Shown here: piece after piece, positions 3,487 through 29,168 of the stretch | Layout of the letters: each line of letters begins with the position of its first letter | Numbering within the stretch: the stretch's first letter is position 1 | Assembly: GCA_020725625.1 (NCBI GenBank) | Contig: DYET01000202.1 | Span: forward strand, 1 to 35,084 | DNA: 35,084 nt | Source of the DNA: Desulfovirgula sp. | Lineage (GTDB): Bacteria > Bacillota > Desulfotomaculia > Desulfotomaculales > Desulfocucumaceae | Direction of reading: 5' to 3' | The notes under the pieces: model-generated | Seen by the model: only the letters and a program-made list of their open reading frames with translations | What the model was told of the DNA's origin: nothing | The model's database searches: none | Position numbers and translations under genes: made by a program

Positions 3487-3506
3487 TAGCAGGGGGGCAA
3501 GAAAAA

Positions 3507-3914: not shown

Positions 3915-3939
3915 GACCGGATTCAAGGGGGGAAGGCCG

Positions 3940-5826: not shown

Positions 5827-5875
5827 AAGGCCTTGTGCGAAGTTTGCGGTGGGGCCGGGGAGTGAAGGCGATACC

Positions 5876-6796: not shown

Positions 6797-6941
6797 ATCC
6801 TTGAAAAACTCTTTTTAAACCCCGGATTTTCATTATTCGTGGTGCTGCAATCTGCGGCATAAGCGTCTCGATTCTTGCTTCCGGATTCTGAATTCTGATG
6901 GGAGAGACTACATCCATATTCAGGAAAGCGGGGTCCTTTGC

Positions 6942-8012: not shown

Positions 8013-8023
8013 GGGGCATTGCC

Positions 8024-9286: not shown

Positions 9287-9771
9287 AAATAAGGGGTTTT
9301 GCCTGGAAATACGGGGACAACATAGACACCGACCTGATCATACCGGGGAAGTACCTGGATATAGGGGATGTCAGGGAGCTGGCCAGGCACGCCATGGAGG
9401 GGCTGGACCCGGATTTTGTGTCCAAATTCAGGCCCGGCGATGTAATCGTGGCCGGCCGCAATTTCGGGTGCGGGTCGAGCCGGGAAAACGCCGCCGACGT
9501 ACTCAAGGAACTGGGCGTCGGGGCGGTGGTGGCGGAGTCCTTCGCCAGAATATTTTTCCGAAACGCCATAAATATAGGCCTCCCGGTGCTGGAGTGCGAA
9601 GGGTGCGGGAAGATCGAAGGAGGTCACGAAATCGAGCTGGACATGAGGTCGGCCATGGTTTTCAACCATACATCGGGGTCCGTCTACAGGGCGGGGTCCC
9701 TGCCTGACTTCATACTGGATATAGTGGAGGCCGGGGGCCTCGTAGAGTACAAGAAAAAATCAAGGAGGTAG
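9283..9771 (+). CDS. leuD: Aconitase-family dehydratase/isomerase small subunit (LeuD type)
   Basis: This is the 162-residue swivelling domain that closes over the Fe-S active site of the LeuC-type large subunit. It shows DNIDTDLIIPGKYL near the start, GRNFGCGSSRE (the substrate-carboxylate-binding loop) and FARIFFRNAINIGLPVLEC. The start is GTG 9283 inside the GTGA overlap with the leuC stop. It begins KIRGFAWKYGDN, as in the family, and has a purine-rich ribosome site. A longer open frame upstream lies within leuC and is not used. The loop after DTD, which sets substrate specificity, reads IIPGKYLDIGDV and does not decide the substrate. Confidence 0.9.
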   Translation: MKIRGFAWKYGDNIDTDLIIPGKYLDIGDVRELARHAMEGLDPDFVSKFRPGDVIVAGRNFGCGSSRENAADVLKELGVGAVVAESFARIFFRNAINIGLPVLECEGCGKIEGGHEIELDMRSAMVFNHTSGSVYRAGSLPDFILDIVEAGGLVEYKKKSRR

Positions 9772-9776
9772 CCCTG

Positions 9777-11159: not shown

Positions 11160-11200
11160 AACCGTCCGGAAGGAATACTTTCATAGGCGAGATTTGCGGG

Positions 11201-11226
11201 GTACTCGGGAAGTATTCGGGGAGTAC
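11201..11226. repeat. Tandem 11-bp repeat with inverted GTACTC/GAGTAC ends
   Basis: In the 151-base gap before the crotonase gene, GTACTCGGGAA (11201-11211) is followed directly by GTATTCGGGGA (11212-11222) and then GTAC. The outer six bases, GTACTC and GAGTAC, are perfect inverted copies 14 bases apart. This is the largest gap inside module A, so an operator for an internal promoter is possible. I see no convincing -35/-10 pair. Confidence 0.4.
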
Positions 11227-11310
11227 AGTGAAAAACCGGACTTTAAGGGCTGTTAACTGCTGGTTTCAAAATCCCAAAGTTATTTCAGTATGTAAAAGGA
11301 GATGCATCTG

Positions 11311-12105
11311 ATGGATACGGAAAAGCAATTGATTATCTGGACCAAGGGACGGGTCTGCACCATGGAAATAAACCGGCCCCAGAAAAGGAACACCCTGAAC
11401 CCCGTGGTCCTTCAGGCCATGTCCGAAGCCATGGATGATCTTGAAAAACAGGAAGACATCCGGGTGGTGATTATCCGGGGGGTTGGCGACAAGGCATTTT
11501 GTGCCGGGTTCGATATTTCCGAAATTCCCGCCGGGTCCGGCGAGCAGGTGGCCGGGGGGGGGCAGGGACTGTTGGAGGCGGCATTCTCAAGAGTGCGTAA
11601 CTTCAAATATCCCGTTATTGCTATGATTAACGGGGTGTGCGTAGGTGCCGGCCTGGACCTGGCCGCAAACTGCGACTTCCGCATCGCCGCGGAGGGGGTC
11701 AGGCTGGGCATAACCCCGGCCAAGCTGGGGGTGGTTTACCACGCCTCGGGGCTAAACCGTTTTATCAGGCTGGTGGGAGTGGCCGCCACCAGGGAATTGT
11801 TTTATACGGGAAGGCTGATCCCTGCCGAAAGGGCGTTGGCAATGGGGCTGGTGGACCAGGTGGTGCCGGCGGGCGGGCTGGAGGAGGCCGTTTACGGCTT
11901 GGCGGAGGAGATAGCGGAAAACGCACCCCTTTCGGTTTGCGGCAGCAAGTACATCATCAACCGCCTGGTGGAAAAATTCTTCCTCTCCCCGGAAGAGGAA
12001 GAGGAAATCCGCCAGATGACTATCCGGGCCTTTAACAGCCAGGACCTGCTGGAGGGACAGATGGCATTTCTCCAGAAAAGAAAGCCCCAGTTCAAAGGAA
12101 GGTAA
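11311..12105 (+). CDS. Crotonase-family protein resembling methylmalonyl-CoA decarboxylase (YgfG/ScpB-like)
   Basis: 264 residues. The oxyanion-hole segments are present (DKAFCAGFDISE and GVCVGAGLDLAANCD). The two Glu residues that define an enoyl-CoA hydratase are not: the first position reads Asp and the second region reads TPAKLGVVYHASG rather than PEI-LG-PG-GG. That second region, Y143 within it, and the C-terminal SQDLLEGQMAFLQKRKPQF match what I recall of E. coli methylmalonyl-CoA decarboxylase (TPVNLGVPY, active-site Tyr140, EGMNAFLEKRKP). I therefore favour decarboxylation of a malonyl-CoA-type mutase product. ATG 11311 is chosen over ATG 11302 because AAGGAG lies nine bases before it and touches the other. 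A simple hydratase is the alternative. Confidence 0.85.
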   Translation: MDTEKQLIIWTKGRVCTMEINRPQKRNTLNPVVLQAMSEAMDDLEKQEDIRVVIIRGVGDKAFCAGFDISEIPAGSGEQVAGGGQGLLEAAFSRVRNFKYPVIAMINGVCVGAGLDLAANCDFRIAAEGVRLGITPAKLGVVYHASGLNRFIRLVGVAATRELFYTGRLIPAERALAMGLVDQVVPAGGLEEAVYGLAEEIAENAPLSVCGSKYIINRLVEKFFLSPEEEEEIRQMTIRAFNSQDLLEGQMAFLQKRKPQFKGR

Positions 12106-12110
12106 TCGAT

Positions 12111-13460
12111 GTGGATGAGTTGAGGATTTTATCGCCCACGGCCATACTGGGGTACGGATTTCCCCCCGAATCCTTCGAGGCCGCCTTGGGGGCAAAGCCT
12201 GATGTCATCGCGGTGGACGCAGGCTCCACCGACGCCGGGCCGTTTCTTCTGGGGGGAGTTATCCCCAGGGGGATGTTGATTCCGGTCAGGAAGGATGTTG
12301 AAAAGCTCCTTCTGGCGGCAAGGAGGCTGGGAATACCCCTGCTGATCGGGTCGGCGGGGGGTGCCGGGGCTGACCCCCATCTGGAGTCCGTGGTGGAGGT
12401 TGTCAGGGAGGTGGCCGCCTCCCACGGCCTGCACTTTACGATGGCCGTAATCTACTCTGAGGTGGACCGGGAGGTGGTGATTAAGGCCTTGGGCCGGGGC
12501 AGAATACACCCAATGGAAAACACCGGCCCCCTGACCGAAACTGAAGTGCGGCAGAGCGCCCACATTGTGGCCCAGATTGGCCCGGAGCCCTTCGTTGAGG
12601 CCCTGAACCGGGGGGCGGAGGTGGTGGTGGCGGGAAGGTCCTACGACCCCTCCATGTTTGCCGCCCCGGCCCTGAGACTGGGCTACCCCGAGGGCCTGGC
12701 GCTGCATTTGGGCAAGATACTGGAGTGCGGGGCCATAGCGGCGACGCCCGGGTCGGGCAGCGACTGCATGATGGGTTACCTGCGGAGGGACCACTTCCTG
12801 GTGGAGCCTACCGGCCCGGGCCGCAGGTGCACGCCTCTCTCGGTGGCGGCCCATACCCTCTATGAAAAGCCTCACCCGTACCTGCTACACGGGCCGGGAG
12901 GGTGCCTGGACCTCTCGGAGTGCCGGTTTGAACCCGTGGATGACCGCAGGGTCAGGGTCTCCGGGAGCCGATTCCTGGCTGACCGGTCGTATCGAGTCAA
13001 GTTGGAGGGGGCGGGCCCCGCCGGATTCAGGAGCATTTTTATCGCCGGGATCAGAGATCCTATTCTGATCGCCGCCCTGGATCAAACCCTTCAAAACGTG
13101 GAGGGGCAGGTCAGGGATTACTTCTCCGGCGAAGGGGAATTCCACGTCAGCTACCGGGTATACGGCCGGGACGGGGTCATGGGTGCGATGGAGCGGGAGC
13201 CATTCACGGCCAGCGAAGTCGGGCTGGTGGTGGAGGTTGTTTCCAAGAGCGGTGAACTTTCGGCCGGGGCCTGCGCCATGATCAGGTCCACCCTGCTGCA
13301 CTGTGATTATCCCGGCCGCAAGGCTACCAGCGGCAACCTGGCGTTCCCCTTCTCGCCGTCGGATATCTCCATGGGCCCGGCTTACAGGTTTACGGTATAT
13401 CACCTGATGGAGGTGGACCACCCGTGCAGCCTGGTCCGGATCCGGTACATCAATGTGTGA
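12111..13460 (+). CDS. AtuA family protein (DUF1446)
   Basis: 449 residues. It matches the family named after AtuA of acyclic terpene utilisation: the N-terminal DAGSTDAGPFLLGG, IGSAGGAGADPH, VVAGRSYDPSMFAAPALRLG and a CGA motif near residue 205 are typical. The biochemical role of the family is not established as far as I know; members occur in clusters for branched acid and terpene breakdown. GTG 12111 lies five bases after the crotonase stop and follows AAGGAAGG. It is paired with the DUF4387 gene 16 bases downstream, and these two families commonly travel together. They probably act as a unit on an intermediate of this pathway. Confidence 0.87.
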   Translation: MDELRILSPTAILGYGFPPESFEAALGAKPDVIAVDAGSTDAGPFLLGGVIPRGMLIPVRKDVEKLLLAARRLGIPLLIGSAGGAGADPHLESVVEVVREVAASHGLHFTMAVIYSEVDREVVIKALGRGRIHPMENTGPLTETEVRQSAHIVAQIGPEPFVEALNRGAEVVVAGRSYDPSMFAAPALRLGYPEGLALHLGKILECGAIAATPGSGSDCMMGYLRRDHFLVEPTGPGRRCTPLSVAAHTLYEKPHPYLLHGPGGCLDLSECRFEPVDDRRVRVSGSRFLADRSYRVKLEGAGPAGFRSIFIAGIRDPILIAALDQTLQNVEGQVRDYFSGEGEFHVSYRVYGRDGVMGAMEREPFTASEVGLVVEVVSKSGELSAGACAMIRSTLLHCDYPGRKATSGNLAFPFSPSDISMGPAYRFTVYHLMEVDHPCSLVRIRYINV

Positions 13461-15118: not shown

Positions 15119-15182
15119 GCTGCTGACGTTGACTTTGTCAGCAGCCTGGCCGGGCAATAGGATTGCCCGGTGTTTTTATTTT
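15119..15182 (+). terminator. Tandem hairpins ending in an intrinsic terminator after usp
   Basis: GCTGCTGAC (15119-15127) pairs with GTCAGCAGC (15137-15145). A second 9-base stem, CCGGGCAAT (15150-15158) with ATTGCCCGG (15162-15170) and a three-base loop, is followed at once by TGTTTTTATTTT. The second hairpin is a textbook Rho-independent terminator. It isolates the acyl-CoA dehydrogenase gene from module A and the usp gene. Confidence 0.88.
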
Positions 15183-15203
15183 CAGGAAGACCAAATTTTT
15201 CGT

Positions 15204-15219
15204 TGGCAAGCTTTTTGCG
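15204..15219 (+). promoter_or_regulatory. Sigma-54 (-24/-12) promoter for the acyl-CoA dehydrogenase gene
   Basis: TGGCAAG-CTTT-TTGCG fits the consensus TGGCACG-N4-TTGCW, with GG and GC at the required spacing. It lies between the terminator and the gene, about 42 bases from the TTG start, in non-coding DNA. A sigma-54 activator is encoded immediately downstream of the gene. Confidence 0.75.
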
Positions 15220-15260
15220 ATTATGGAAAAGCTGACTTGTCATCTCAAGGAGGGATCGTA

Positions 15261-16400
15261 TTGGATTTCAACATTCCGGAGGAACTTGCGATGATGAAAA
15301 GGGCGGTGCGCGACTTCGTCGAGAACGAAGTGGACCCGGTGGCCGCGGAAATCGAGGAGAGGGACGAAATACCGGCGCAGGTTATAGAAAAAGCCAGGGA
15401 GATGGGCCTTTTCGGGCTGAGCATTCCTTCCGAGTACGGCGGAGCAGGGCTTGACATGCTGGGGAAATGTCTTGTTTTTGAAGAGCTGGGCCGCACCCAT
15501 AACGGCTTTACAACGCTTGTCGGCGCGCACAACGGGATAGGCACCGTCGGTATTGTGAACCTGGGCACTCCCGAACAAAAACAGAAATACCTGCCCGCCA
15601 TGGCAGCGGGTGAAAAAATCGGCGCCTTTGCACTGACCGAGCCCAACGCCGGGTCCGACGCGGCGAACCTGAGCACTACCGCGGTTAAGAAGGGCGACAG
15701 GTACATCTTAAACGGAACCAAGCACTTCATCACCAACTCTGTAATCGGCCAGGTCTTTACGGTCATGGCGGTAACCGACAAATCCAGGGGGAGCAGGGGC
15801 ATCACCTCTTTTATAGTGGAAAAGAGCTTCCCCGGCTTTAAGGTGGGTAAGGTGGAGAAAAAAATGGGGCTGCGCGGGGCGCACACGGCGGAGCTTATTT
15901 TCGAGGACTGCGAGGTTCCGGCCGAAAACGTGCTGGGAAAAGAGGGGGAGGGCTTTGTCAACGCCCTGAAAATTCTCACCAACGGCCGGGTTGGAATAGC
16001 CGCCAGGAACCTGGGGTCCTCCGGAAAGCTGCTCGACCTGTCCATTGCCTACGCCAGGCAACGGGTTCAATTCGGCAGGCCCATCGCCGAGTTTCAGGCC
16101 ATTCAGCACATGCTGGCGGAAATGGCCACGGATATAGAAGTTGCCCGCAGCATGGTCTACCGCGTGGCCTGGATGGTGGACCAGCAAATACCGGTGATCA
16201 AAGAGGCGGCCATGGTGAAGCTGTTCACCTCGGAGGTTTACGGGCGGGTGGCCGACAAGGCGCTGCAGATTCACGGGGGCATGGGTTACATGAAGGAGTT
16301 CGAGATTGAGCGCTTTTACCGCGATGCCCGGATCAACAGGATTTTCGAGGGAACGTCGGAAATTCAGAAAAATATCATTGCCTCCCAGCTTCTGAAATAG
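15261..16400 (+). CDS. Acyl-CoA dehydrogenase (FAD)
   Basis: A 379-residue acyl-CoA dehydrogenase that introduces the alpha,beta double bond of an acyl-CoA and passes electrons to electron-transfer flavoprotein. It has LTEPNAGSDAANLST (FAD/substrate loop), RVQFGRPIAEFQ, IHGGMGYMKEFEIERFYRDARI and the catalytic base E363 in FEGTSEIQ, the standard position for short/medium-chain enzymes. The start is TTG 15261, nine bases after AAGGAGGG; the longer open frame upstream runs through the promoter and terminator and is not coding. It is transcribed alone from its sigma-54 promoter, with the activator gene following. Confidence 0.93.
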   Translation: MDFNIPEELAMMKRAVRDFVENEVDPVAAEIEERDEIPAQVIEKAREMGLFGLSIPSEYGGAGLDMLGKCLVFEELGRTHNGFTTLVGAHNGIGTVGIVNLGTPEQKQKYLPAMAAGEKIGAFALTEPNAGSDAANLSTTAVKKGDRYILNGTKHFITNSVIGQVFTVMAVTDKSRGSRGITSFIVEKSFPGFKVGKVEKKMGLRGAHTAELIFEDCEVPAENVLGKEGEGFVNALKILTNGRVGIAARNLGSSGKLLDLSIAYARQRVQFGRPIAEFQAIQHMLAEMATDIEVARSMVYRVAWMVDQQIPVIKEAAMVKLFTSEVYGRVADKALQIHGGMGYMKEFEIERFYRDARINRIFEGTSEIQKNIIASQLLK

Positions 16401-16550: not shown

Positions 16551-18635
16551 GTGTCAATGACGGTCCGCAACATAATGGTCAAGGTGGACGAGTGCCTTCC
16601 GGCCGGGGCCACCCTGGCCGACGCCCGGCGCTACTGGAAAAAGTACGGCGTGGGCGCCGCTCCCCTGCTCAATTCCCAAAACGAAATCATTGCCTTGATT
16701 TTGAGGGAAGAAACACTGGAGTTGTTGTCAGAAGATTTAGATATCGATTCGCCCGCCGTTGAGTACGCCCACTTCAACCCTGAATGCGTCCCGCCGGAAG
16801 CCGCTGTCGAAAAGGTATGGCCCCTGTCTTCCGCCTGGGCCGTGGTGGTAAACGGAAAAGGCGCGGTTTTGGGGCTCCTGTCGGTGCAGGCGCTGGACAA
16901 GGCCTATGCCTTCATCGCGGACCGCAGGCTGAAAGAACTCGACGCCGTGATCAGCTGCGCCCATAACGGGATTGTGGCCATCGACGCCGACGGAAAAATA
17001 ACCCTTTTCAACCCGGCCGCGGAGCGAATCTCCAAGGTAAGCAGGCGTAAGGCGATGGGCAACTACTACAACGACGTCCTGGCTCCCTCCGGCCTGATGG
17101 ACGTCATAAACACCGGCCAGACGCAATTGAGCGTCAACTACAAGCTCGGGAAAAGAAAATATATCACCAACCGCAGTCCAATCATCCAGGGAGGCAGGGT
17201 GGTAGGGGCGGTGGGGATCTTTCAGGACGTGTCGGAAATAGAGTCTATTTCCGAGGAATTGTCCACCGTCAAAAGGCTGAACGGCGAACTGATGACCATA
17301 CTCGATTCGTCTTACGACGGCATACTGATTTGCGACCGGGAAGGAAAGATTTTGCGTTACAACCAGGCATTCCTGAGAATAACGGGCTTCCGGCCGGCCG
17401 AATTCTCGACCCGGGCGGTGCATCACCTGTTTGAGAACAATATGTTGGGCGAGGTCCTGCGGAACAAGAAGTCCACCTCCTTTATCGAAAAAAGGAAAAA
17501 CGACCTCAACGAACTGCTGGTAACCTGTACCCCGGTTTTGGACGAGGACCTCAACGTGGAGCGGATCGTCATAAACGTCAGGGACATCACCGAACTTACC
17601 CGGCTGAAGCTGGAACTGGAGAAAACGAAGGAACTGTCCTGGCGCTACCACCTTGAACTGTCGGAACTGAGGGCCCAGCTCAAGGGGACCGGTGACCTGG
17701 TGGTAAACTCGGCGTCCATGACCAAGGTTCTGGACCTGGTGTTAAGGGTCGCCAAGGTGGATTCTACGGTACTTATTCTCGGCGAGTCGGGGGTGGGCAA
17801 GGAGGTCATCGCCCGTGCCATCCACAACAACAGTTCCCGCTGCAACAACCCCTTCATCAAGATAAACTGCGGGTCCATTCCGGAGTCGCTTTTGGAATCG
17901 GAACTGTTCGGCTACGAGGCCGGGGCCTTCACGGGCGCCGGAAAGCACGGCAAGCCCGGCCTGTTTGAGCTGGCCGACAAGGGCACGCTGCTGCTGGACG
18001 AGATAGGAGACCTGCCCCTGGGGCTGCAGGTAAAGCTTTTAAGGGTGTTGCAGGAGAAGGAAATAATCAGGGTCGGGGGGGTCAGGCCCCGCAAAATCGA
18101 TGTGCGCTTTCTGGCCGCCACCAACGTTGATCTGGCCAAAAGAGTCAGGGAAAAGGCTTTCCGGAAAGACCTGTTTTTCCGGCTGAACGTGGTGCCCATC
18201 AACATCCCGCCCCTGAGGGAGCGGCGGGAGGATATAATTCCGCTGGTGCACAAGTTCCAGAAGAAATTCGAACAGCAGTACGGCATAAAAAAGCAGTTGA
18301 GCGTTGAGGCGCTGGACAGACTGCTGCAGTACGAGTGGCCGGGAAATGTACGGGAACTGGAAAACATTGTCGAATTTCTTTACGTCACGGTGGGCGGTCC
18401 GGTGATCAAGCTGGAGGACCTGCCCTGGCAGGTGAGGGAATGGAATACGGAAACGCAGGAGGTGGTGTCGGTCAACGGCATAGTCCCGCTCAAGAAGGCG
18501 GTCAGCGAACTGGAGAAAATGCTTATTCAGAGGGCCATGAAGCAGTACAAAAGCACCAAAAAGGTGGCCTCCCTGCTGAAGGTGGACCAGTCCACCATAA
18601 TCAGAAAACTTCAGCGGATTAACAGAGGGGAATGA
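16551..18635 (+). CDS. Sigma-54-dependent transcriptional activator with CBS, two PAS, AAA+ and Fis-type HTH domains
   Basis: A 694-residue enhancer-binding protein. A CBS-type ligand-binding region (about 1-120) is followed by two PAS domains (about 130-240 and 250-360), a coiled linker, and the AAA+ motor with Walker A GESGVGKE from residue 411, the sigma-54-contacting GAFTGA loop at 458-463 and Walker B around D483 (LLLDEIGD). The C-terminus is a Fis/TyrR-like helix-turn-helix (KKVASLLKVDQSTIIRKLQRI). There is no receiver domain, so it senses a small ligand or redox state directly rather than through a kinase. The start is GTG 16551 after a G-rich ribosome site; ATG 16557 is an alternative. 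It very likely drives the -24/-12 promoters at 15204 and 18803. Confidence 0.95.
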   Translation: MSMTVRNIMVKVDECLPAGATLADARRYWKKYGVGAAPLLNSQNEIIALILREETLELLSEDLDIDSPAVEYAHFNPECVPPEAAVEKVWPLSSAWAVVVNGKGAVLGLLSVQALDKAYAFIADRRLKELDAVISCAHNGIVAIDADGKITLFNPAAERISKVSRRKAMGNYYNDVLAPSGLMDVINTGQTQLSVNYKLGKRKYITNRSPIIQGGRVVGAVGIFQDVSEIESISEELSTVKRLNGELMTILDSSYDGILICDREGKILRYNQAFLRITGFRPAEFSTRAVHHLFENNMLGEVLRNKKSTSFIEKRKNDLNELLVTCTPVLDEDLNVERIVINVRDITELTRLKLELEKTKELSWRYHLELSELRAQLKGTGDLVVNSASMTKVLDLVLRVAKVDSTVLILGESGVGKEVIARAIHNNSSRCNNPFIKINCGSIPESLLESELFGYEAGAFTGAGKHGKPGLFELADKGTLLLDEIGDLPLGLQVKLLRVLQEKEIIRVGGVRPRKIDVRFLAATNVDLAKRVREKAFRKDLFFRLNVVPINIPPLRERREDIIPLVHKFQKKFEQQYGIKKQLSVEALDRLLQYEWPGNVRELENIVEFLYVTVGGPVIKLEDLPWQVREWNTETQEVVSVNGIVPLKKAVSELEKMLIQRAMKQYKSTKKVASLLKVDQSTIIRKLQRINRGE

Positions 18636-18863: not shown

Positions 18864-19616
18864 ATGAACTTGAAAGACAGAGTTGCCATTGTCACCGGAT
18901 CGGGGAGCGGGATCGGCAGGGAGATCGTTTCCATGCTGGCCGAGCGCGGGGCCAGGTCGGTGGTGTTTGACATAGACGGCGACGCAGCCGCCTCGGTGGC
19001 GGATAAAATTCGGCGGCTGGGCGGGGAGGCTATGGCTGTCTGCGGAGATGTGACGGCTTGGAGCGATGTTCAGCTCATGGCCCTGAAAGCGGTTGAAAAA
19101 TACGGGCGGATCGACATACTGGTGAACAATGCCGGGGTGCTGCGGGACAACCTGATCTTGAACATGCCCGAAGAGGATTTCGACTACGTCATCAACGTGA
19201 ACCTAAAAGGGTGCTGGCTGGCCTCCAAGGCCGTGCTCAGGCACATGAAAGACCAGCAGTACGGCCGCGTCGTGAACATCTCCTGCAGGGCCTGGCTGGG
19301 CAGCGCGGGCCAGAGCAACTACGCGGCCTCCAAGGGAGGGGTGGTGAGCCTGACCAGGAGCCTGGCCCTGGAATTTTCCAGGTACAACATCACGGTCAAC
19401 TGCATTGCCCCGGGCCTGATCGATACCTCCATGATCCGGAGCCTGAGGCAGGATGTCCAGGAGGATTTAATCCGTTCCCAAATCTCGCCCATCATCGGCC
19501 AGCCGTACGACGTCGCCTACCTGGCCCTGTACCTGGTTTCCGACGAGGCCCGCTACATAACCGGCCAGGTCATCCACGTTGACGGGGGTAAAAGCCTGGG
19601 GGCAAGAAACATTTGA
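18864..19616 (+). CDS. Short-chain dehydrogenase/reductase (FabG-like 3-hydroxyacyl-CoA dehydrogenase)
   Basis: A 250-residue classical SDR. It has the cofactor loop TGSGSGIG, NNAG, catalytic S140 (NISC), Y153 and K157 (YAASK), and the C-terminal ITGQVIHVDGG. This is the pattern of 3-oxoacyl reductases, which in catabolic operons often run as (R)-3-hydroxyacyl-CoA dehydrogenases. That would fit the (R)-specific MaoC hydratase downstream. ATG 18864 follows GGAAGGGTG; the 32-codon upstream extension would begin before the sigma-54 promoter and is discarded. First gene of the module B operon. Confidence 0.92.
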   Translation: MNLKDRVAIVTGSGSGIGREIVSMLAERGARSVVFDIDGDAAASVADKIRRLGGEAMAVCGDVTAWSDVQLMALKAVEKYGRIDILVNNAGVLRDNLILNMPEEDFDYVINVNLKGCWLASKAVLRHMKDQQYGRVVNISCRAWLGSAGQSNYAASKGGVVSLTRSLALEFSRYNITVNCIAPGLIDTSMIRSLRQDVQEDLIRSQISPIIGQPYDVAYLALYLVSDEARYITGQVIHVDGGKSLGARNI

Positions 19617-19672: not shown

Positions 19673-21091
19673 TTGTTGATCTTGGCGGGGATTACTTCTT
19701 ACGGAGCCTACATACCGCTTTTCAGGCTGGGGGAGGGGACTGCGGGCTGGAGCGGGGGACTTGAAAGGGCCGTGGCCGGCTTTGACGAGGACAGCATCAC
19801 CATGGCGGCGGCGGCGGCCGTGGACTGCCTGCGGGGGGCGGACCGGAAGGAGGTCGACGGCCTCTACTTCGCAACTACCACCGCCCCTTACCTGGAAAAA
19901 CAGGGGGCCGCGGTGATTGCCGAGGCCGCCGACCTGCGCAGCGATATTTTTACTGTTGATTTCGCCAACTCCCTGAGGTCTGGGACGGCGGCCCTAAAGG
20001 CTGCCCTGGACGCGGTCCGGGCGGGGTCGGCCGGGAATGTCCTGGTAGCCGCGGCCGATCTGCGCATTCCCCAGCCCCGGTCTGAGTTTGAGCCGTTGTT
20101 CGGCGACGGCGCCGCCGCCGTCATGGTGGGCAGCGAAAATGTGATTGCCGAAATCGAGTGGACTTATTCCCTGACCCATGAAATACATGATCTCTGGAGG
20201 CCCGCCGGGGAGGTCTTTGTCCGCTCCTCGGAAGACCGCTTTGCCACCGACGAGGGCTATTCGGAAGTGATCCCCCGGGCCGTGGCCGGGTTGATGGAAA
20301 GGAGCGGCCTGAAGCAGGACGATTTCGCCTGCCTGGTCCTGTACGGCCAGGACGCCAGGAAGCACAGGCAAATGGCCGCCCGGCTGGGCTTCGGCGCCGG
20401 GACCCGGGTGCAGGACCCGCTGTTCAACAAGGTGGGCAATACCGGGGCGGCCTCGGTCCTGATGACGCTGGCGGCCGCCCTGGAGGAGTCCCGGCCGGGG
20501 GACAGAATCCTTCTGGCCGGCTACGGCGACGGGGCGGACGCCTTTGCCCTGAGGGTGACCGGGGAAATAGAAAAAATCGGGGTGAGAAGAGGAGTCAGGG
20601 GCCATTTAAAATCCAAAAAAATAATCGGTGACTATTTGACTTACGCCAAGTGGAGAGGCCTGATCGATATCGCTCCCCCGGTCCGCCGGCCACCGCTTGA
20701 TCCCCCTTCGCCGGCGGCCCTCCACCGGGAGCGGGACCAGAACATCCGCCTCTACGGGGTGAAGTGCAACAAGTGCGGCTGCCTGCAGTATCCTCCCCAG
20801 AGGGTGTGTACCAGGTGCCAGGCCAGGGACGATTTCACGCCGGTCAGGTTTTCGGACCGGAGGGCGACTCTCTTTACTTACTCCATGGACTACCTGGGGC
20901 CGACCCCGGATCCGCCGCTGGTGGTATGCTTCATCGACTTTGAGGGCGGGGGGAGAATGGCCTGCACGATGACCGACCGTGACGTGGCCGAGGTGAAGGT
21001 AGGGATGCCGCTGGAGATGAGCTTCAGGAGGCTGCACACGGTGGCCGGCATCCACAATTATTACTGGAAATGCATTCCGTCAAGAGACTAG
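19673..21091 (+). CDS. HMG-CoA-synthase-like (thiolase fold) protein fused to a DUF35 zinc-ribbon/OB domain
   Basis: 472 residues. The N-terminal ~330 have the 3-hydroxy-3-methylglutaryl-CoA synthase fold (ITSYGAYIP start, FGDGAAAVMVG, NKVGNTGAAS). The C-terminal ~130 are a DUF35 domain with a zinc ribbon (CNKCGCLQYPPQRVCTRC) and an OB-fold. By motif alignment the catalytic Cys of HMG-CoA synthase is absent (FANSLRSGTAAL in place of FAC-AGTAAL), and the active-site His region reads YGQD in place of FHQP. It is therefore probably not a synthase. Non-catalytic partners of this kind bridge thiolases in archaeal thiolase complexes, and a thiolase gene follows directly. Start TTG 19673 follows AAGGAAAGG. 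Confidence 0.85.
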   Translation: MLILAGITSYGAYIPLFRLGEGTAGWSGGLERAVAGFDEDSITMAAAAAVDCLRGADRKEVDGLYFATTTAPYLEKQGAAVIAEAADLRSDIFTVDFANSLRSGTAALKAALDAVRAGSAGNVLVAAADLRIPQPRSEFEPLFGDGAAAVMVGSENVIAEIEWTYSLTHEIHDLWRPAGEVFVRSSEDRFATDEGYSEVIPRAVAGLMERSGLKQDDFACLVLYGQDARKHRQMAARLGFGAGTRVQDPLFNKVGNTGAASVLMTLAAALEESRPGDRILLAGYGDGADAFALRVTGEIEKIGVRRGVRGHLKSKKIIGDYLTYAKWRGLIDIAPPVRRPPLDPPSPAALHRERDQNIRLYGVKCNKCGCLQYPPQRVCTRCQARDDFTPVRFSDRRATLFTYSMDYLGPTPDPPLVVCFIDFEGGGRMACTMTDRDVAEVKVGMPLEMSFRRLHTVAGIHNYYWKCIPSRD

Positions 21092-21108
21092 GAAAGGAGA
21101 TGCGTTCT

Positions 21109-22296
21109 ATGCCGGGGATAAGAGACCGGGTGGCGGTGGTCGGCATGGGCTGCACCAGGTTCGGGGAGCACTGGCACAAAAGCGCCGAGGACTTAATGGT
21201 GGAGGCCGCCTACGAAGCTTACCGGGACGCGGGCATCGGGCCCGGAGACATTCAGGCGGCCTGGCTGGGCTTCAATTACGCCTTCGGCACCGCCCGGGGA
21301 ACAATGTTGTCCCACGCCTTAAAGCTCGATTACATTCCCGTCACCAGGGTTGAAAACGCCTGCTGCACCGCCACCGACGCCTTCAGGAACGCCTGCTACG
21401 CGGTGGCCGCCGGTATATATGACCTGGTGCTGGTGCTGGGCGTGGAGAAGCTGAAGGATGCCGGGGTGTCCGGCCTGCCGGTTTCCTACGCGCCGATCTG
21501 GGGGTCCCGCGTGGAGCCGCCGGCACCCGCCCCCGTTCAGTTTGCCATGGCCGCAACGAGGTATTTTCACCATTACGGCCTCAGCTATGAAGAGGGAAAA
21601 AGGACGCTGGCCAAGATTGCAGTGAAAAATCACCGCAACGGGTCGCTCAACCCCAAGGCCCACTTTCAGAAGGAGATTACCGTGGAACAGGTAATCAAGG
21701 CGCCCATCGTCGCCTCTCCCCTGGGGCTCTTCGACTGCTGCGGGGTCAGCGACGGGGCGGCGGCGGCCGTCATCACCACCCCTGAAAGGGCGAAAATGAT
21801 GCGGGACGACTATATCCTGGTGAAGGGACTGGGATTAAGCTGCGGGTCGAAGCAGGCCGTTTTGCAGGACGACTACGATATGGTCCATTTCGAGGAGACG
21901 GTTGCCGCCGCCGGAACGGCCTACCAGGAAGCCGGAATTAAAAACCCGCGGGAGGAAATCGACCTGGCCGTGGTCCACGACTGCTTTACCATAACCGAGC
22001 TTTTGATATACGAGGACCTCGGCTTCAGCCCCCGGGGCCGGGCGAAGGAGGACATAGACTCGGGCTTTTTTGAACTGGACGGGGGGCTGCCGGTCAACAC
22101 CGACGGCGGCCTGAAGTGCTTCGGCCATCCGGTGGGGGCCAGCGGGCTGCGGATGATTTACGAAGTTTACAAGCAGCTTCAGGGAAAGGCCGGGGCCCGC
22201 CAGGTGAAAAAGGCAAATATCGGCCTGACTCACAACCTGGGCGGCTGGCCGGGGCATTTTACCTGTGCCGTGGCCATATTCGGACGGAGGGAGTGA
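21109..22296 (+). CDS. SCP-x type thiolase (acetyl-CoA acyltransferase-like), catalytic Cys present
   Basis: A 395-residue thiolase of the sterol-carrier-protein-x group, which cleaves a 3-ketoacyl-CoA with CoA. The nucleophile C85 lies in VENACCTATDAF. The later motifs HDCFTITELL and GGLKCFGHPVGASG supply the active-site His residues. ATG 21109 is ten bases after AAGGAG; earlier in-frame ATGs lie inside the previous gene or touch the ribosome site. Thiolases of this group usually need a DUF35 partner, and the preceding HMGS-DUF35 fusion can serve. It is the best candidate for the real thiolytic step of this operon. Confidence 0.92.
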   Translation: MPGIRDRVAVVGMGCTRFGEHWHKSAEDLMVEAAYEAYRDAGIGPGDIQAAWLGFNYAFGTARGTMLSHALKLDYIPVTRVENACCTATDAFRNACYAVAAGIYDLVLVLGVEKLKDAGVSGLPVSYAPIWGSRVEPPAPAPVQFAMAATRYFHHYGLSYEEGKRTLAKIAVKNHRNGSLNPKAHFQKEITVEQVIKAPIVASPLGLFDCCGVSDGAAAAVITTPERAKMMRDDYILVKGLGLSCGSKQAVLQDDYDMVHFEETVAAAGTAYQEAGIKNPREEIDLAVVHDCFTITELLIYEDLGFSPRGRAKEDIDSGFFELDGGLPVNTDGGLKCFGHPVGASGLRMIYEVYKQLQGKAGARQVKKANIGLTHNLGGWPGHFTCAVAIFGRRE

Positions 22297-22304
22297 TTTT
22301 TAGC

Positions 22305-23186
22305 GTGAGGCCGGTTGAAAGGATCTGCGTGGTGGGGGCGGGCAACATGGGTCACCAGATTGCGCTCAGCGCCGCCCTGGCCGGCTACAGGGTGAAGTGC
22401 ACCGACGTGAGCCGGGAAGTACTGGAAAGGGCTGATCAGTTTGCCGACAGCTACCTGGCCGACCGGGTGGCCAGGGGGAAGCTGGCGGAAGAAGCGGCCA
22501 GGTCCGCCAGGGCAAACATCCTGTTTACCCGGGACCTGAATGAGGCCGCAGGCGACGCCGACCTGGTCATCGAGGCCGTGCTTGAGAACCTGGAATTGAA
22601 AATCCAGATCTTCAGGCAGCTGGATGAAATATGCCCGCCCCACGCCATTCTGGCCACCAACAGCTCATATATCGTCAGTTCCAGAATAGCCGGCGCCACC
22701 GGGCGGCCGGAGAAGGTGTGCAACATGCACTTTTTCAACCCGGCCCTGGTCATGAAGCTGGTGGAGGTGGTCAAGGGCCCGCACACGGCCGGGGAAACGG
22801 CCGAAGCGGTCAGGGCGGTGGCCGAAAAAATGGGCAAAATCCCGGTGGTCCTGCAAAAGGAGATTTACGGCTTTCTGGTTAACCGCATCGTCTCGGCGGT
22901 CCGGAGGGAGGCGCTGTACCTCCTGGACATGGGCATCGCCTCCCACGAGGACATAGACTCCGCCGTGGTCCACGCCCTGGGTCACCCCATGGGGCCTTTC
23001 CGGCTGCTGGACCTGGTGGGAATCGACCTGGCCTACGACATCAGCATGGGCCTCTACCGGGAAACCGGGGATCCCGCCGACAAGCCCTCCCCCGCGCTGG
23101 TGGAGCGGTACGTGAGGGGCGAGTGGGGCAAGAAGAAGGGGAAGGGGTTTTACGACTACCGGGCCCCGGATCGGCCGGCGGGGTAG
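22305..23186 (+). CDS. 3-hydroxyacyl-CoA dehydrogenase (Hbd/PaaH type)
   Basis: 293 residues, the length of stand-alone (S)-3-hydroxyacyl-CoA dehydrogenases. It has the Rossmann GAGNMGHQIA loop, the catalytic His and its neighbours in MHFFNPALVMKLVEVV, NRIVSAVRREALYLL and the C-terminal LGHPMGPFRLLDLVGIDLA. It oxidises a 3-hydroxyacyl-CoA with NAD+. GTG 22305 has GGAGG/GGGAG upstream at 11-14 bases. GTG 22293, overlapping the thiolase stop, is an alternative adding four residues. An (S)-type enzyme beside an SDR implies two stereochemical routes or two different substrates in the operon. Confidence 0.93.
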   Translation: MRPVERICVVGAGNMGHQIALSAALAGYRVKCTDVSREVLERADQFADSYLADRVARGKLAEEAARSARANILFTRDLNEAAGDADLVIEAVLENLELKIQIFRQLDEICPPHAILATNSSYIVSSRIAGATGRPEKVCNMHFFNPALVMKLVEVVKGPHTAGETAEAVRAVAEKMGKIPVVLQKEIYGFLVNRIVSAVRREALYLLDMGIASHEDIDSAVVHALGHPMGPFRLLDLVGIDLAYDISMGLYRETGDPADKPSPALVERYVRGEWGKKKGKGFYDYRAPDRPAG

Positions 23187-23232: not shown

Positions 23233-23676
23233 ATGATCAGCAAATACTACGACGACCTGGAAATTGGGGAAAAAACCAGGACCCGCGCCCGGACGATAAC
23301 CGAAACCGACATCGTTATGTTTTCCGCCCTGAGCGGCGACTGGTACCCGCTGCACACCGACTCGGAGTACGCCTCGGGAACCCGGTTCGGGCGGCGCATC
23401 GCCCACGGCATGCTGGTCCTGACCGTGGCCTCGGGCCTGGTGAACATCAACCCGGGTATTCTGGTCGCCTTTTACGGCATCGAGAAGGTGAGGTTTACCG
23501 CGCCGGTGTTTATAGGCGACACCCTGCACGTGGAAACCGAGGTCGTGGAAAAAGAGGACCGGGGGCCGTCCCAGGGGGTGGTAACCTTCAGGCAGGACAT
23601 TGTCAACCAGCGGGGGGAAACGGTCTGCGTCGCGGTTAAAAAGGCCCTGATCAAAAAAGGGAACCAGCCGGATTAG
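23233..23676 (+). CDS. MaoC-like hot-dog enoyl-CoA hydratase
   Basis: A 147-residue single hot-dog domain with the (R)-specific hydratase signature GDWYPLHTD, giving catalytic D36 and H41, followed by the family segment RFGRRIAHGMLV. It hydrates a trans-2-enoyl-CoA to the (R)-3-hydroxyacyl-CoA, or the reverse. ATG 23233 follows GGGAGGAAG. An 87-base gap downstream is more AT-rich and holds two CATGCA copies 19 bases apart (noted but not called). Confidence 0.9.
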   Translation: MISKYYDDLEIGEKTRTRARTITETDIVMFSALSGDWYPLHTDSEYASGTRFGRRIAHGMLVLTVASGLVNINPGILVAFYGIEKVRFTAPVFIGDTLHVETEVVEKEDRGPSQGVVTFRQDIVNQRGETVCVAVKKALIKKGNQPD

Positions 23677-23763: not shown

Positions 23764-25299
23764 TTGGAACTCACCCTTGGCTGGATGATCAGAAGGGCGG
23801 CATGGAAGCACCCGCAGGAGACGGCGCTGGTTTGTGAGACCGGGAGGGTGACCTACGCCGATCTGGAAGAGCGTTCGAACCGCCTGGCCAATGCGCTGAA
23901 GGGGCTGGGCCTGGGCAGGAACGACAAGGTGGCCCTGCTTCTCCAGAACTGCCGCCAGTTTATCGAGGCGGTTTTCGGCATCGCCAAAACCGGCGCCGTT
24001 TGCGTCCCGCTTAATTACAGGCTGAAGGCCGGGGAACTGGAGTACATTCTCAACCACAGCGACTCCCGGGCGATCATTTACCAGGCCGATTTCGGGTCCG
24101 CCGTGGAATCCCTGCTGCCGAAAACCCCTCAGTTAAAGCACCTCCTGGCGGTGGGCGGCGGGATAAATTCCGGTCCCGGGTACGAGGACCTGCTGGCCGG
24201 ATCAACGCCCGCCGACCCTGCAGCGGAGGTGAAAGAAAACGACCTGGCCTCACTGATTTACACCGCCGGGACAACCGGATCCCCGAAAGGAGTCATGCTG
24301 ACCCACAAAAACCACCTCTGGAGCTGCGTCAACTCAATGCTCCGGGAAGGGGACTACCGGCGGGAACTGAATGTGATCACCCCGATACCCGTTTTTCACG
24401 TGGCCGGGTTCCAGAGGTGTTTAATCACCCTGTACCTGGGGGGAAAGAACACGCTGGTAAGGCAATTCGAACCGGGCCGCTTTTTAACCCTGGTGGAACA
24501 GGAAAAACCAACGGCCACCTTTATGGTTCCCACGCTGGTTGCAATGCTCTCGAGGTTTCCCGATCTTGAACGGTTCGACCGCAGCTCCCTGTCGTGCGTG
24601 ATGGTCGGGGCCGCACCCAGCCCGGTCAAGCTCCTTCGGGAAATCCGCAGCATCTTTCCAGGCGCCGAGGTTATTCACATCTACGGCCTGACGGAGGCGT
24701 GCGCCACGGTCAGCTATCTTCCTGCCCGGGAGTTCACGGCCAGGATGGGGAGCGTGGGGAAAGGGTACATCAATACGGAAATCAGGGTGGTCAATGAGTC
24801 GGGAGGTGATGCCGGTCCCGGGCAGGCGGGGGAAATCGCGGTCCGGGGACCCAATGTCATGGCCGGTTACTACAAGAATCCGGGGGCCACGGCCGAAGCC
24901 TTTCTTGACGGAGGCTGGGTAAGAACGGGCGACCTCGGCAGGTTTGACCGGGACGGTTACCTGTACGTGGTTGACCGCAAAAAGGACGTGATTATCAGCG
25001 GGGGCGAAAATATTTTCTGCCCGGAGGTGGAGGCGGTTCTTCTCGAATTTGAGAAAATCGCCGAGGCGGCGGTTATCGGCGTGCCCGATGAACTGTGGGG
25101 TGAAACGGTCCGGGCCGTGGTGGTTCCCAAACCCGGCGCAACTGTTACTGAGCAGGAAGTCATTGACTTTTGCGGTGCCAGGCTGGCCGGTTTCAAAAGG
25201 CCGCGGAGCGTCGTAGTTGTTGACAGCCTCCCAATGAGCGGGTCGAACAAGATTTTGAAGGGAGTACTTCGGGAAAGGTACGGGCGGCCAAAAAATTAA
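23764..25299 (+). CDS. AMP-forming acyl-CoA ligase (FadD-like)
   Basis: 511 residues of the ANL superfamily. It activates a carboxylic acid with ATP to acyl-AMP and then to acyl-CoA. It has the phosphate loop YTAGTTGSPKGVMLTHKN, the acyl-adenylate motif YGLTEACATVSY, the hinge GDLGRFDRDGYLYVVDRKKD and the C-terminal catalytic Lys in NKILKGVLRERYG, all intact. TTG 23764 lies eight bases after GGAGG. It directly precedes the TRAP binding protein, so it may activate the imported acid. Chain length and structure of the substrate are not readable. Confidence 0.93.
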   Translation: MELTLGWMIRRAAWKHPQETALVCETGRVTYADLEERSNRLANALKGLGLGRNDKVALLLQNCRQFIEAVFGIAKTGAVCVPLNYRLKAGELEYILNHSDSRAIIYQADFGSAVESLLPKTPQLKHLLAVGGGINSGPGYEDLLAGSTPADPAAEVKENDLASLIYTAGTTGSPKGVMLTHKNHLWSCVNSMLREGDYRRELNVITPIPVFHVAGFQRCLITLYLGGKNTLVRQFEPGRFLTLVEQEKPTATFMVPTLVAMLSRFPDLERFDRSSLSCVMVGAAPSPVKLLREIRSIFPGAEVIHIYGLTEACATVSYLPAREFTARMGSVGKGYINTEIRVVNESGGDAGPGQAGEIAVRGPNVMAGYYKNPGATAEAFLDGGWVRTGDLGRFDRDGYLYVVDRKKDVIISGGENIFCPEVEAVLLEFEKIAEAAVIGVPDELWGETVRAVVVPKPGATVTEQEVIDFCGARLAGFKRPRSVVVVDSLPMSGSNKILKGVLRERYGRPKN

Positions 25300-26552: not shown

Positions 26553-27752
26553 ATGCGCAGAGTAGCAATTATCGGCGCCGCCACCACCAAGTTCAAGAGC
26601 CGCTGGCTGGACAGAACGTATTACGAGCTGGCCTACGACGTGACCAAGGAGGTCTTGGCCGACGCCGGCATAGGCAAGGACAGGATCGACTCCTGTGTGT
26701 ACGGCATGTACAACGATCTTTTTGCCCGCCAGTACCAGCCTGACTTGTTCGCTCACGATTATATCGGCATGGCGCCCCGCCCCGCGGTTAGGGTAAACAC
26801 GGGCGGGGCCACCGGCGGTTCGGCCATTCGCATGGGGATGGCCGAGGTGGCCTCCGGTATGTCCGATGTCACTCTGGTGCTGGGAGTGGAGAAATGCAAC
26901 GACTGTTTCAACTACGAGGCCGGGATCACCACGCCGGAGGTTTTGAAATCAATCAATTACACCGCGGATATGACTTACGAGTTTCCCACCGGAAGGACGG
27001 CGGCCTCTGTGTTCGCCCTGGCCGTCATCGCCCACCAGGAAAAATACGGCGGGCTTCCCACCAGGGAGCAGATGGCCAAGGTGTCGGTAAAAAACCACCG
27101 CAACGCCGTCAAAAACCCGGTGGCCCAGAGCCCGAAGCTGCTGACCGTGGAAGACGTGATCAACGCCCGGATGATCTCATACCCCTTCGGCTTTTACGAC
27201 AACTGCCTGTATACCGAGGGGGCGGCGGCCGTGATTCTGGCTTCGGAGGATGTGGCCAGAAAGCTGTGCCCGAAGCCGATCTGGATTACAGGGGTGGGGG
27301 CCGCCCTGGACTGGGCCTTCCTGGGCAACAGGCCCAATCTTTATGAGTTCCACTCCAGCCGCGAAGCCGCCGTAAGGGCGTACAAGATGGCCGGGATAAC
27401 CAATCCGCGCCGGGAGATAGACCTGGCCGAACTGCACGACGCCTTCACGGGGACCGAGATAATGGCCTACGAGGACTGCCTGTTCTGTGAACCGGGCGAG
27501 GGAGGCAAATTAATCGACCAGGAAGTGGTGGAGCCCTGGGGGGACCTTCCGGTTAACCTGAGCGGCGGGCTTATCGGCTGCGGCCATGCCGTGGGGGCCA
27601 CGGGAATCATGCAGACGGTGGAGGTAGTCATGCACCTGCGGGGCGAAGCCGGCGAAAGGCAGGTAAAGGAGGCGAGGAGGGGGCTGGTACAGAGCATCGG
27701 CGGCATAGCCAACGCCTGGACGGTGGTACTGATTCTGGAGAAGGAGGTTTAA
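26553..27752 (+). CDS. Thiolase-like protein lacking the nucleophilic Cys
   Basis: 399 residues of the SCP-x thiolase fold (MRRVAIIGAATTKF start, LGVEKCND, HDAFTGTEIMAYED, GGLIGCGHAVGATG). Aligned with the thiolase at 21109, the nucleophile position 85 is Gly: the segment reads RVNTGGATGGSA where an active thiolase has ENAC-SG-A. The His motifs remain. Proteins of this type may act through a different mechanism or serve as a structural partner. It forms a tight pair with the DUF35 protein five bases downstream, like the BbsB/BbsA-type pairs of anaerobic aromatic degradation. ATG 26553 follows GGGGAGGAAGG. Confidence 0.9.
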   Translation: MRRVAIIGAATTKFKSRWLDRTYYELAYDVTKEVLADAGIGKDRIDSCVYGMYNDLFARQYQPDLFAHDYIGMAPRPAVRVNTGGATGGSAIRMGMAEVASGMSDVTLVLGVEKCNDCFNYEAGITTPEVLKSINYTADMTYEFPTGRTAASVFALAVIAHQEKYGGLPTREQMAKVSVKNHRNAVKNPVAQSPKLLTVEDVINARMISYPFGFYDNCLYTEGAAAVILASEDVARKLCPKPIWITGVGAALDWAFLGNRPNLYEFHSSREAAVRAYKMAGITNPRREIDLAELHDAFTGTEIMAYEDCLFCEPGEGGKLIDQEVVEPWGDLPVNLSGGLIGCGHAVGATGIMQTVEVVMHLRGEAGERQVKEARRGLVQSIGGIANAWTVVLILEKEV

Positions 27753-27757
27753 GCGAG

Positions 27758-28309
27758 GTGCCGACCAAAATTGACGCCCAGAAGTGGTACGAAAGGAACA
27801 GCAAGCGGATAGGGGTCCCGGTGGATCTGATCAGGCAGAATTACCGGGAAGAGTTCGAGGGAGAGAAGGACATCGGGGAACCCCTGGAGATTCCCGATAA
27901 GATGGAAGTATTCTACAAGTACACTTACGGCCAGCAGTCCCGTTTCTTCAGGGAGATAAGGGAAAACCAAAAGCTTTACGGGGCCCGGTGCAAAAAGTGC
28001 GGCAAGGTTTTTTGCCCCCCGCGGGCCGGCTGCCCTCACTGCTTCGAGGACACCGAGTGGCTTCCCCTGGAGGGCACCGGCACACTGGTTACTTACACCA
28101 TCGTGTATTTCAGCAACTCCGTGTTTGCGCGGAAGGTGCCCTTCGTCTGCGGGTACGTGAAGCTGGACGGCACTGATTTCTTAATCCTGCAGAGTATATA
28201 CATGGACGACGTGGAAAAGGCCAGGCCCGGCATGCGGGTCAAGGTGTGCTACCAGGAGGAAAGGGACGGCAGGATTACTGACATTTACTTCACACCGGTG
28301 GATGAATAG
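27758..28309 (+). CDS. DUF35 zinc-ribbon/OB-fold protein, thiolase partner
   Basis: 183 residues. The zinc ribbon is clear at about residue 77 (CKKCGKVFCPPRAGCPHC), followed by an OB-fold (GTLVTYTIVYFSN, FVCGYVKLDG). Such proteins bind acyl-CoA or channel it to the thiolase encoded next to them. The N-terminal ~60 residues are an extension with many charged residues. GTG 27758 follows AAGGAGG at about ten bases. The stop at 28309 overlaps an unneeded upstream ATG of the next gene. Confidence 0.9.
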   Translation: MPTKIDAQKWYERNSKRIGVPVDLIRQNYREEFEGEKDIGEPLEIPDKMEVFYKYTYGQQSRFFREIRENQKLYGARCKKCGKVFCPPRAGCPHCFEDTEWLPLEGTGTLVTYTIVYFSNSVFARKVPFVCGYVKLDGTDFLILQSIYMDDVEKARPGMRVKVCYQEERDGRITDIYFTPVDE

Positions 28310-28322
28310 GAGGGCAAAAAAG

Positions 28323-29168
28323 ATGGCCGGAAAAGTGATTATCACCGCCGCCCTGACCGGGGGGATCCAGGGAAAGTCCCTAAACCCCAACATACCGGAG
28401 CAGCCGGAGGAGATCATCCAGGCCGCCTACGACTGCTACAACGCGGGGGCCGCCATTGTGCACCTGCACGCCCGCGACAGGGAGGGAAAGCCCACTTCCG
28501 ACTACAGGATTTACGGGGAGATTCACGCCGGGATAAGGTCCCGGTGCAACCTCATTTTACAGGACACCACCGGGGGCGGGGCCAACCTCAGCCGGGAGCA
28601 GAGGATCGAGGTGGTCAAGGCGAAGCCCGAAATGGCTTCCCTCAACATGGGAACCCTGGTCCGGACCATAGGGGAGTACAGGGGGTCGGTCTTTCTCAAC
28701 ACCCGCGACGACATTGAATATTACCTGGGTGAAATGAACAGGCACGGCGTGAAGCCCGAGATGGAGGTCTACAGCCAGGCCATGATGGAGGAAGTGGAGC
28801 GGCTGATAGAAAAGGGCCTGCTTTCACCCCCCTACGTGGTCAACCTGGTTTTGAACATGCCTTACCAGGGGGCCCTGCGGGGCACGGCCAGGAACCTCCT
28901 TTCACTGGTGACCGACTATATTCCCAAAGACACCCTTTTCAGCGTGACGGCGGTGGGCCGCTCCCAGCTTCCACTGACCACCATGTCCATGCTGCTGGGC
29001 GGCAATGTCCGGGTGGGCCTTGAAGACAACATATATTACCGCGAGGGGGAGCTGGCCCGGAGCAACGCCCAGCTCGTGGAAAGGGCCGTCCGCATTGCCC
29101 GCGAGCTGGAAATGGAGGTGGCCAGTCCGGACGAAGCCCGGGAAATCCTGGGACTGAAGGCTGTATAG
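28323..29168 (+). CDS. BKACE family beta-keto acid cleavage enzyme (DUF849)
   Basis: 281 residues. Family members exchange the carboxymethyl part of a beta-keto acid with acetyl-CoA, giving a new acyl-CoA and acetoacetate; the founding member cleaves 3-keto-5-aminohexanoate. Zinc ligands are visible in VHLHARD. The ITAALTGGIQGKSLNPNIP start, TTGGGANLS, LNMGT and GLEDNIYY segments are typical, with the Glu of GLEDN as a further metal ligand. ATG 28323 is nine bases after AGGAGG; ATG 28302 would include that ribosome site. It suggests that a free beta-keto acid arises in the pathway. The specificity subgroup cannot be told. Confidence 0.92.
   Translation: MAGKVIITAALTGGIQGKSLNPNIPEQPEEIIQAAYDCYNAGAAIVHLHARDREGKPTSDYRIYGEIHAGIRSRCNLILQDTTGGGANLSREQRIEVVKAKPEMASLNMGTLVRTIGEYRGSVFLNTRDDIEYYLGEMNRHGVKPEMEVYSQAMMEEVERLIEKGLLSPPYVVNLVLNMPYQGALRGTARNLLSLVTDYIPKDTLFSVTAVGRSQLPLTTMSMLLGGNVRVGLEDNIYYREGELARSNAQLVERAVRIARELEMEVASPDEAREILGLKAV

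Follow-up and report, generated by a model that had tools for sequence, protein, structure and literature searches.

The gene at 19673..21091 of the window (the whole stretch of 35,084 nucleotides of Desulfovirgula sp. DNA analysed) encodes an HMG-CoA synthase (HMGCS)-like domain fused to a DUF35 domain. This protein, called FUS here, is probably not an HMG-CoA synthase but a subunit without catalysis of its own that gives a beta-oxidation thiolase a scaffold or substrate chamber. The probability that FUS has such a non-catalytic role in a catabolic thiolase encoded by two genes is put at about 0.7. The FUS gene and its domains are located as follows.

19673..21091, + strand: HMGCS-like/DUF35 fusion gene (FUS), 472 aa, TTG start
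19673..20668, + strand: HMGCS-like domain of FUS (residues 1-332), matched in structure to 6esq_I
20744..21028, + strand: DUF35 of FUS, consisting of a Zn ribbon (residues 358-386) and an OB fold (residues 395-452)

In Pfam, the N-terminal part of FUS matches KAS III/HMGCS-type domains, and zf-ChsH2 and OB_ChsH2_C follow at the C terminus. The scores for the DUF35 part are above the Pfam cut-offs, with 30.9 bits (cut-off 23.2) for zf-ChsH2 and 40.2 bits (cut-off 27.1) for OB_ChsH2_C. The zinc ligands are Cys365, Cys368, Cys379 and Cys382; they are invariant in 76 sequences, and FUS contains no other invariant Cys. In a sequence search of the PDB the best match of FUS is PhlA (9skh_A, 5m3k_A; E 3.3e-42), and the archaeal HMGCS 6esq_I and the archaeal DUF35 6esq_E match with E values of 1.2e-30 and 8.6e-13, respectively. 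FUS stays under the curated HMGCS cut-offs, reaching 167.7 against 353.35 bits for TIGR00748 and 229.6 against 244 for PRK04262.

An AlphaFold2 model of the whole chain, built with 76 family members, has a pLDDT of 92.9 and a pTM of 0.93, which indicates that the two domains are held in a defined arrangement. The top VIA-align match of the model is 6esq_I, with a Z score of 47.7 and an rmsd of 1.6 Å over 326 residues, followed by PhlA (9skh_A, Z 46.0) and then MucA (9vbo_A, Z 40.7). All of these matches fall on the HMGCS domain, and the assignment of the DUF35 fold comes from sequence only. The retained HMGCS fold and the attached DUF35 agree with what the earlier note had described for 19673-22296, a span that takes in FUS plus the adjacent thiolase gene. 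Its further statement, that the module lies on one polypeptide, holds for the HMGCS-like and DUF35 parts, which are fused, but not for the thiolase, which is a separate gene.

The loss of the nucleophile and His positions, also claimed in that note, is confirmed by alignment. With 6esq_I as the reference sequence, and Glu82 and Cys114 numbered as in PMC6392133, the residues Glu82, Cys114 and His238 are replaced in FUS by Thr69, Leu101 and Tyr224.

19877..19879, + strand: codon of Thr69, aligned with the catalytic Glu82 of archaeal HMGCS; 83 of 90 relatives also have Thr
19973..19975, + strand: codon of Leu101, at the position of the nucleophile Cys114; L/I/V/M in 85 of 90 relatives, never Cys
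20342..20344, + strand: codon of Tyr224, at the position of the catalytic His238; variable (Y in 45, P in 22 and H in 3 of 90 relatives)

In the alignment of the 90 fused relatives, Cys and Glu are kept in none and His in three. The replacements are not random: 92% of the relatives have Thr at the Glu site and 94% have an aliphatic residue or Met at the Cys site, indicating that the replacement itself is conserved. The columns are assigned correctly, since KAS III proteins aligned in this way retain both Cys and His. Unfused HMGCS-like homologues that lie beside a separate DUF35, one of them in the same genome, likewise lack the Cys. The deep nodes of the tree that join the fused, split and PhlA/archaeal groups are without support, and therefore no claim is made on the number of Cys losses or of fusion origins.

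An alternative active-site Cys had been named in the earlier note as evidence against its reading. Among 76 members, the alignment revealed no conserved substitute active-site Cys in the HMGCS-like domain. Two candidates were rejected, as neither replaces the nucleophile throughout the family. Cys225 adjoins the His position and is present in 23 of the 76 members, but it is Gly in the window FUS; Cys52, found in 61 of 76, is located where the first helix ends.

The same note had suggested that the locus is a bacterial counterpart of the channelling complex known from archaea. In a complex of the archaeal type, the thiolase would make acetoacetyl-CoA and FUS would convert it to HMG-CoA. The inventory of three domains is indeed the same, so that a thiolase/HMGCS-like/DUF35 module does occur in bacteria, and the best structural match of FUS is the archaeal enzyme. 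However, the HMGCS acceptor site, with Glu, Cys and His all lost, is dead both in the window FUS and family-wide, and a profile search of the own genome found no HMGCS above the TIGR00748 cut-off. Archaeal-type channelling therefore lacks an active HMGCS as its destination and fails as an explanation; we consider it extremely improbable. The known mechanism of HMG-CoA formation is closed to FUS-family proteins despite their sequence resemblance to HMGCS, so the HMGCS label would put a false mevalonate step into many uncultured bacterial genomes.

A new catalytic activity could in principle have arisen in FUS through other residues of the old pocket (Thr69/Thr70, Arg131, Asp145, Glu187 and Gln247). 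Arg131, Asp145, Glu187 and Gln247 are 94-99% conserved in the fused members and are not the residues found in the archaeal enzyme, and conservation enriched in FUS at Thr69 (92%), Asp145 (99%), Gln247 (98%) and Glu187 (94%) would be consistent with such an activity. Nevertheless, this is very unlikely, given that the elbow carries Leu101 and no nucleophile, that helix position 52 is the only conserved alternative Cys of the HMGCS-like domain, and that the conserved residues could equally be structural or part of an interface. Judged from the alignment, Arg131, Asp145, Glu187 and Gln247 are candidate interface or pocket residues.

The gene that follows FUS encodes a thiolase.

21109..22296, + strand: partner thiolase of the PRK06157/NF004810 type (586 bits against a cut-off of 403), SCP2-thiolase-like

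The thiolase most likely starts at 21109, in line with the earlier note; this is 17 bases behind the FUS stop codon, with the ribosome-binding site GGAAAGGAG at 21091-21099. It contains the Cys and both His residues, at positions 98, 303 and 353 (numbered from the ORF start at 21070), as expected from the active thiolase that the earlier note had placed next door. The nucleophile Cys, the HDxF His and the GHxxG His are retained in 78 of 78 full-length partner thiolases.

The linkage between FUS and this thiolase is near-obligate. The thiolase lies directly downstream of FUS in 79 of the 80 fused copies with enough downstream contig to be tested; the FUS copy at locus L036 has thiolases upstream and not downstream. 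Full-length FUS is confined to 15 of 398 genomes of the phylum, and an NF004810 thiolase above the cut-off to the identical 15; in the 14 of these other than that of the window the two genes are separated by 11-80 bp. The nominal hypergeometric probability of this co-occurrence is 2e-27, a value that overstates independence because several of the 15 genomes are congeneric. Pairwise distances of the thiolase correlate with those of each FUS domain (r of 0.85 and 0.87) to the same extent as those of the FUS domains with each other (0.83), and the thiolase/FUS correlation is 0.98 among five paralogues of the own genome. Co-inheritance of an operon, however, also produces linkage and correlated distances of this kind. 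A physical complex of FUS and the thiolase is likely, and by analogy with Phl(A2C2)2B4 a stoichiometry of FUS4:thiolase4 would be expected.

It is also conceivable that FUS is an acyl-CoA carrier or a dehydrogenase-docking protein that does not need to bind the thiolase, so that the linkage would reflect a shared pathway only. DUF35 was first proposed as an acyl-CoA-delivery domain (PMC2954200), and fusions of FUS with SDR exist. In addition, FUS and thiolase folded as one chain gave a pLDDT of 91.2 but a pTM of 0.59, with confident domains and a value close to that expected for unplaced partners. This co-fold was made for the own-genome paralogue L002 (80% identical), where the thiolase continues the FUS frame after a single TAG, which was read as Q. 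The short forced linker may account for the lack of a confident mutual placement, but the co-fold, as the one direct test of association, lends no support to a complex. We nevertheless regard a role apart from the thiolase as decidedly unlikely, because the gene beside FUS is almost invariably a thiolase of one subfamily while its other neighbours vary, and because the structurally known relatives of the FUS domain pair are complexed with a thiolase-fold chain (PDB 6ESQ, 5M3K, 9VBO).

The genes around the FUS-thiolase pair are as follows.

15129..16400, + strand: acyl-CoA dehydrogenase (ACAD) gene, upstream of FUS
16551..18635, + strand: PAS/sigma-54-dependent activator gene, upstream of FUS and likely the regulator of the cluster
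18864..19616, + strand: SDR of the 3-oxoacyl reductase/3-hydroxyacyl dehydrogenase type, directly upstream of FUS in the same orientation
22305..23186, + strand: 3-hydroxyacyl-CoA dehydrogenase (HCDH) gene, downstream of the thiolase
23233..23676, + strand: MaoC-type hydratase gene
23764..25299, + strand: acyl-CoA ligase gene

A TRAP transporter and acyl-CoA dehydrogenases are also found near the pair in the window. Across the relatives, ACAD, SDR, HCDH and ligase are recurrent neighbours of FUS, and neighbours other than the thiolase vary.

A close parallel is provided by PhlABC, the Friedel-Crafts acyltransferase PpATase from Pseudomonas protegens (PDB 5M3K/5MG5). In this complex PhlA lacks the Cys and Glu, PhlB (DUF35) bridges A and C, and only PhlC is catalytic; a single cavity is lined by all three subunits, none of them is dispensable, and co-expression of the whole operon is required (PMC6392133). 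FUS and its thiolase likewise combine an HMGCS-like part without Cys and Glu, a DUF35 and a thiolase-fold part bearing the catalytic Cys. The two systems differ in the replacements (Gly115/Cys83 in PhlA, Leu/Thr in FUS), in the A and B components, which are separate chains in PhlABC but fused in FUS and 90 relatives, and in setting, as PhlABC performs biosynthetic C-acylation and FUS lies in a beta-oxidation neighbourhood. PhlABC, with its dead PhlA, is thus an already known bacterial system whose HMGCS part is inactive, and it is a better analogue of FUS-thiolase than the archaeal channelling complex. The archaeal thiolase/HMGCS/DUF35 complex (6ESQ) contains the nearest structure to the HMGCS-like domain of FUS, and the same three components are encoded together. 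In contrast to FUS, with its dead acceptor site, the archaeal HMGCS is active and takes acetoacetyl-CoA from the thiolase, within a complex of three separate chains that serves the mevalonate pathway and has a CoA-binding site fused across subunits.

MucABC from Streptococcus macacae (PDB 9VBO/9VBT) is a multi-component acyltransferase that resembles the FUS module in having an HMGCS-like chain without the Cys, as seen by alignment, although its components are separate chains and only ~25% identical. It is proposed to carry out an acetylation step in tetramate biosynthesis (PMC10161427). The benzoylsuccinyl-CoA thiolase BbsAB (PDB 7PXP) and the Ltp2/Sal aldolases with ChsH2/Shy DUF35 (6OK1, 9MYR) are catabolic and, like the FUS pair, combine a thiolase fold with a zinc/OB DUF35 domain; unlike the FUS pair, they have no HMGCS-like component.

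The likeness to PhlABC and MucABC raises the alternative of a synthetic C-acyltransferase or condensing complex, of Claisen or Friedel-Crafts type, in which FUS would replace separate A and B subunits. PhlA is the best PDB sequence match of FUS, and both PhlA and MucA are without the Cys. We hold this alternative to be unlikely, because the partner thiolase, which in the PDB sequence search is related to archaeal and SCP2 thiolases, is nearer to these than to PhlC, because the neighbours are degradative (ACAD, HCDH, MaoC, ligase and TRAP transport), and because alkane degraders have FUS and SDR-SCP2 joined in one chain.

For FUS as the non-catalytic subunit of a catabolic thiolase, the following working can be proposed. 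The thiolase dimer (21109-22296) would do the chemistry with its nucleophile Cys and the HDxF and GHxxG His residues. As the DUF35 domains of the archaeal complex, PhlABC, BbsAB and Sal/Ltp2 do, that of FUS would sit on the thiolase and contribute to the wall of the thiolase active site. A dead chamber may be formed by the HMGCS-like domain beside the thiolase site, with the hydrophobic Leu101 replacing the nucleophile, and this chamber could hold or guide the acyl-CoA and stiffen the assembly. Either the SDR or the 3-hydroxyacyl-CoA dehydrogenase of the operon would produce the 3-oxoacyl-CoA, which the FUS-thiolase complex would cleave with CoA. FUS would then supply the roles of PhlA and PhlB on one chain, by analogy with PhlABC. 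We infer both the thiolytic direction and the chamber role.

The genome of the window (G000, 3.1 Mb) contains six HMGCS-like pseudoenzyme modules, five fused and one split, on contigs C20, C34, C79, C160, C125 and C195 (the window contig), near beta-oxidation genes. In the split module a TGA separates adjacent HMGCS-like and DUF35 genes. Fused relatives occur in at least nine phyla, as named in the sequence records, including Chloroflexota, Desulfobacterota and Actinomycetota. Extended forms of FUS are present in two alkane-degrading sulfate reducers.

L180:3515-6247, Desulfatibacillum alkenivorans: HMGCS-like/DUF35/SDR/SCP2 four-domain chain, directly before the partner thiolase
L181:5553-8303, Desulfosarcina alkanivorans: HMGCS-like/DUF35/SDR/SCP2 four-domain chain, directly before the partner thiolase

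Through these chains, the dehydrogenase step in which the substrate of the thiolase is formed becomes physically tied to FUS. Upstream of the four-domain chain in D. alkenivorans, the gene at L180 1316-3427 encodes an MFE-2-like hydratase/MaoC/SDR/SCP2 protein. Eukaryotic SCP2-type thiolases and MFE-2 proteins act on branched or bulky acyl chains, and the substrate of FUS-thiolase is likely a branched or bulky 3-oxoacyl-CoA. A candidate single-chain thiolase-HMGCS-DUF35 fusion at L063, a frame of 1163 codons, was discarded; its upstream part has no query match and contains no thiolase.

More tentatively, the family may represent a widespread and as yet undescribed beta-oxidation complex, mostly of anaerobes, in which the dead HMGCS serves as a relay chamber from the SDR dehydrogenase to the SCP2-type thiolase. 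The 3-oxoacyl-CoA would be handed on from the SDR, which in some cases is part of the FUS chain together with an SCP2 carrier domain, in a channelling like that of the archaea but in the catabolic direction. This is a possibility to which we give less than even odds.

Already known are the three-component architecture, its occurrence in bacteria with an HMGCS that is dead, and the partnership of DUF35 with thiolases; fusions of DUF35 to domains of the thiolase superfamily and to short-chain dehydrogenases have also been reported (PMC2954200). No described HMGCS-DUF35 fusion was found in the open-access literature, a scope outside which the original papers on the archaeal complex and BbsAB lie. 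The HMGCS-like/DUF35 fusion family, its near-obligate thiolase, the catabolic context, the spread over many phyla and the HMGCS-DUF35-SDR-SCP2 chains were not found described. If the FUS-thiolase pair is a complex, the dead-HMGCS/DUF35/thiolase architecture would extend from natural-product biosynthesis to the breakdown of fatty acids or hydrocarbons, and three systems with a dead HMGCS beside an active thiolase would suggest a positive role for the dead domain. The fused FUS also makes a two-protein experiment of the question whether other DUF35 complexes channel substrates, which was raised in PMC12329534.

Elsewhere in the window, a second thiolase-like gene (26553-27752, + strand) is paired with a stand-alone DUF35 (27758-28309, + strand). 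It encodes Gly at the position of the nucleophile Cys (RVNTGGATGG) and keeps the HDxF and GHxxG His residues; ST0096 (4YZO) also lacks the nucleophile Cys. This type of Cys-less thiolase/DUF35 pair adjoins FUS-thiolase at loci L016, L017, L020-L022, L050 and L058, a recurrence which indicates that it may belong to the same pathway or assembly. Directly 3' of the pair in the window is a beta-keto acid cleavage enzyme (BKACE) gene (28302-29168, + strand), possibly an alternative to thiolytic cleavage. A catabolic island at 1753-13460 (+ strand) encodes a B12-dependent acyl-CoA mutase that is split into a large and a small subunit, a radical SAM/PDZ protein and MeaB, as well as isopropylmalate dehydrogenase-like, aconitase-like, MmgE/PrpD, enoyl-CoA hydratase and AtuA-like proteins. 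This gene content suggests the degradation of branched acids or terpenoids.
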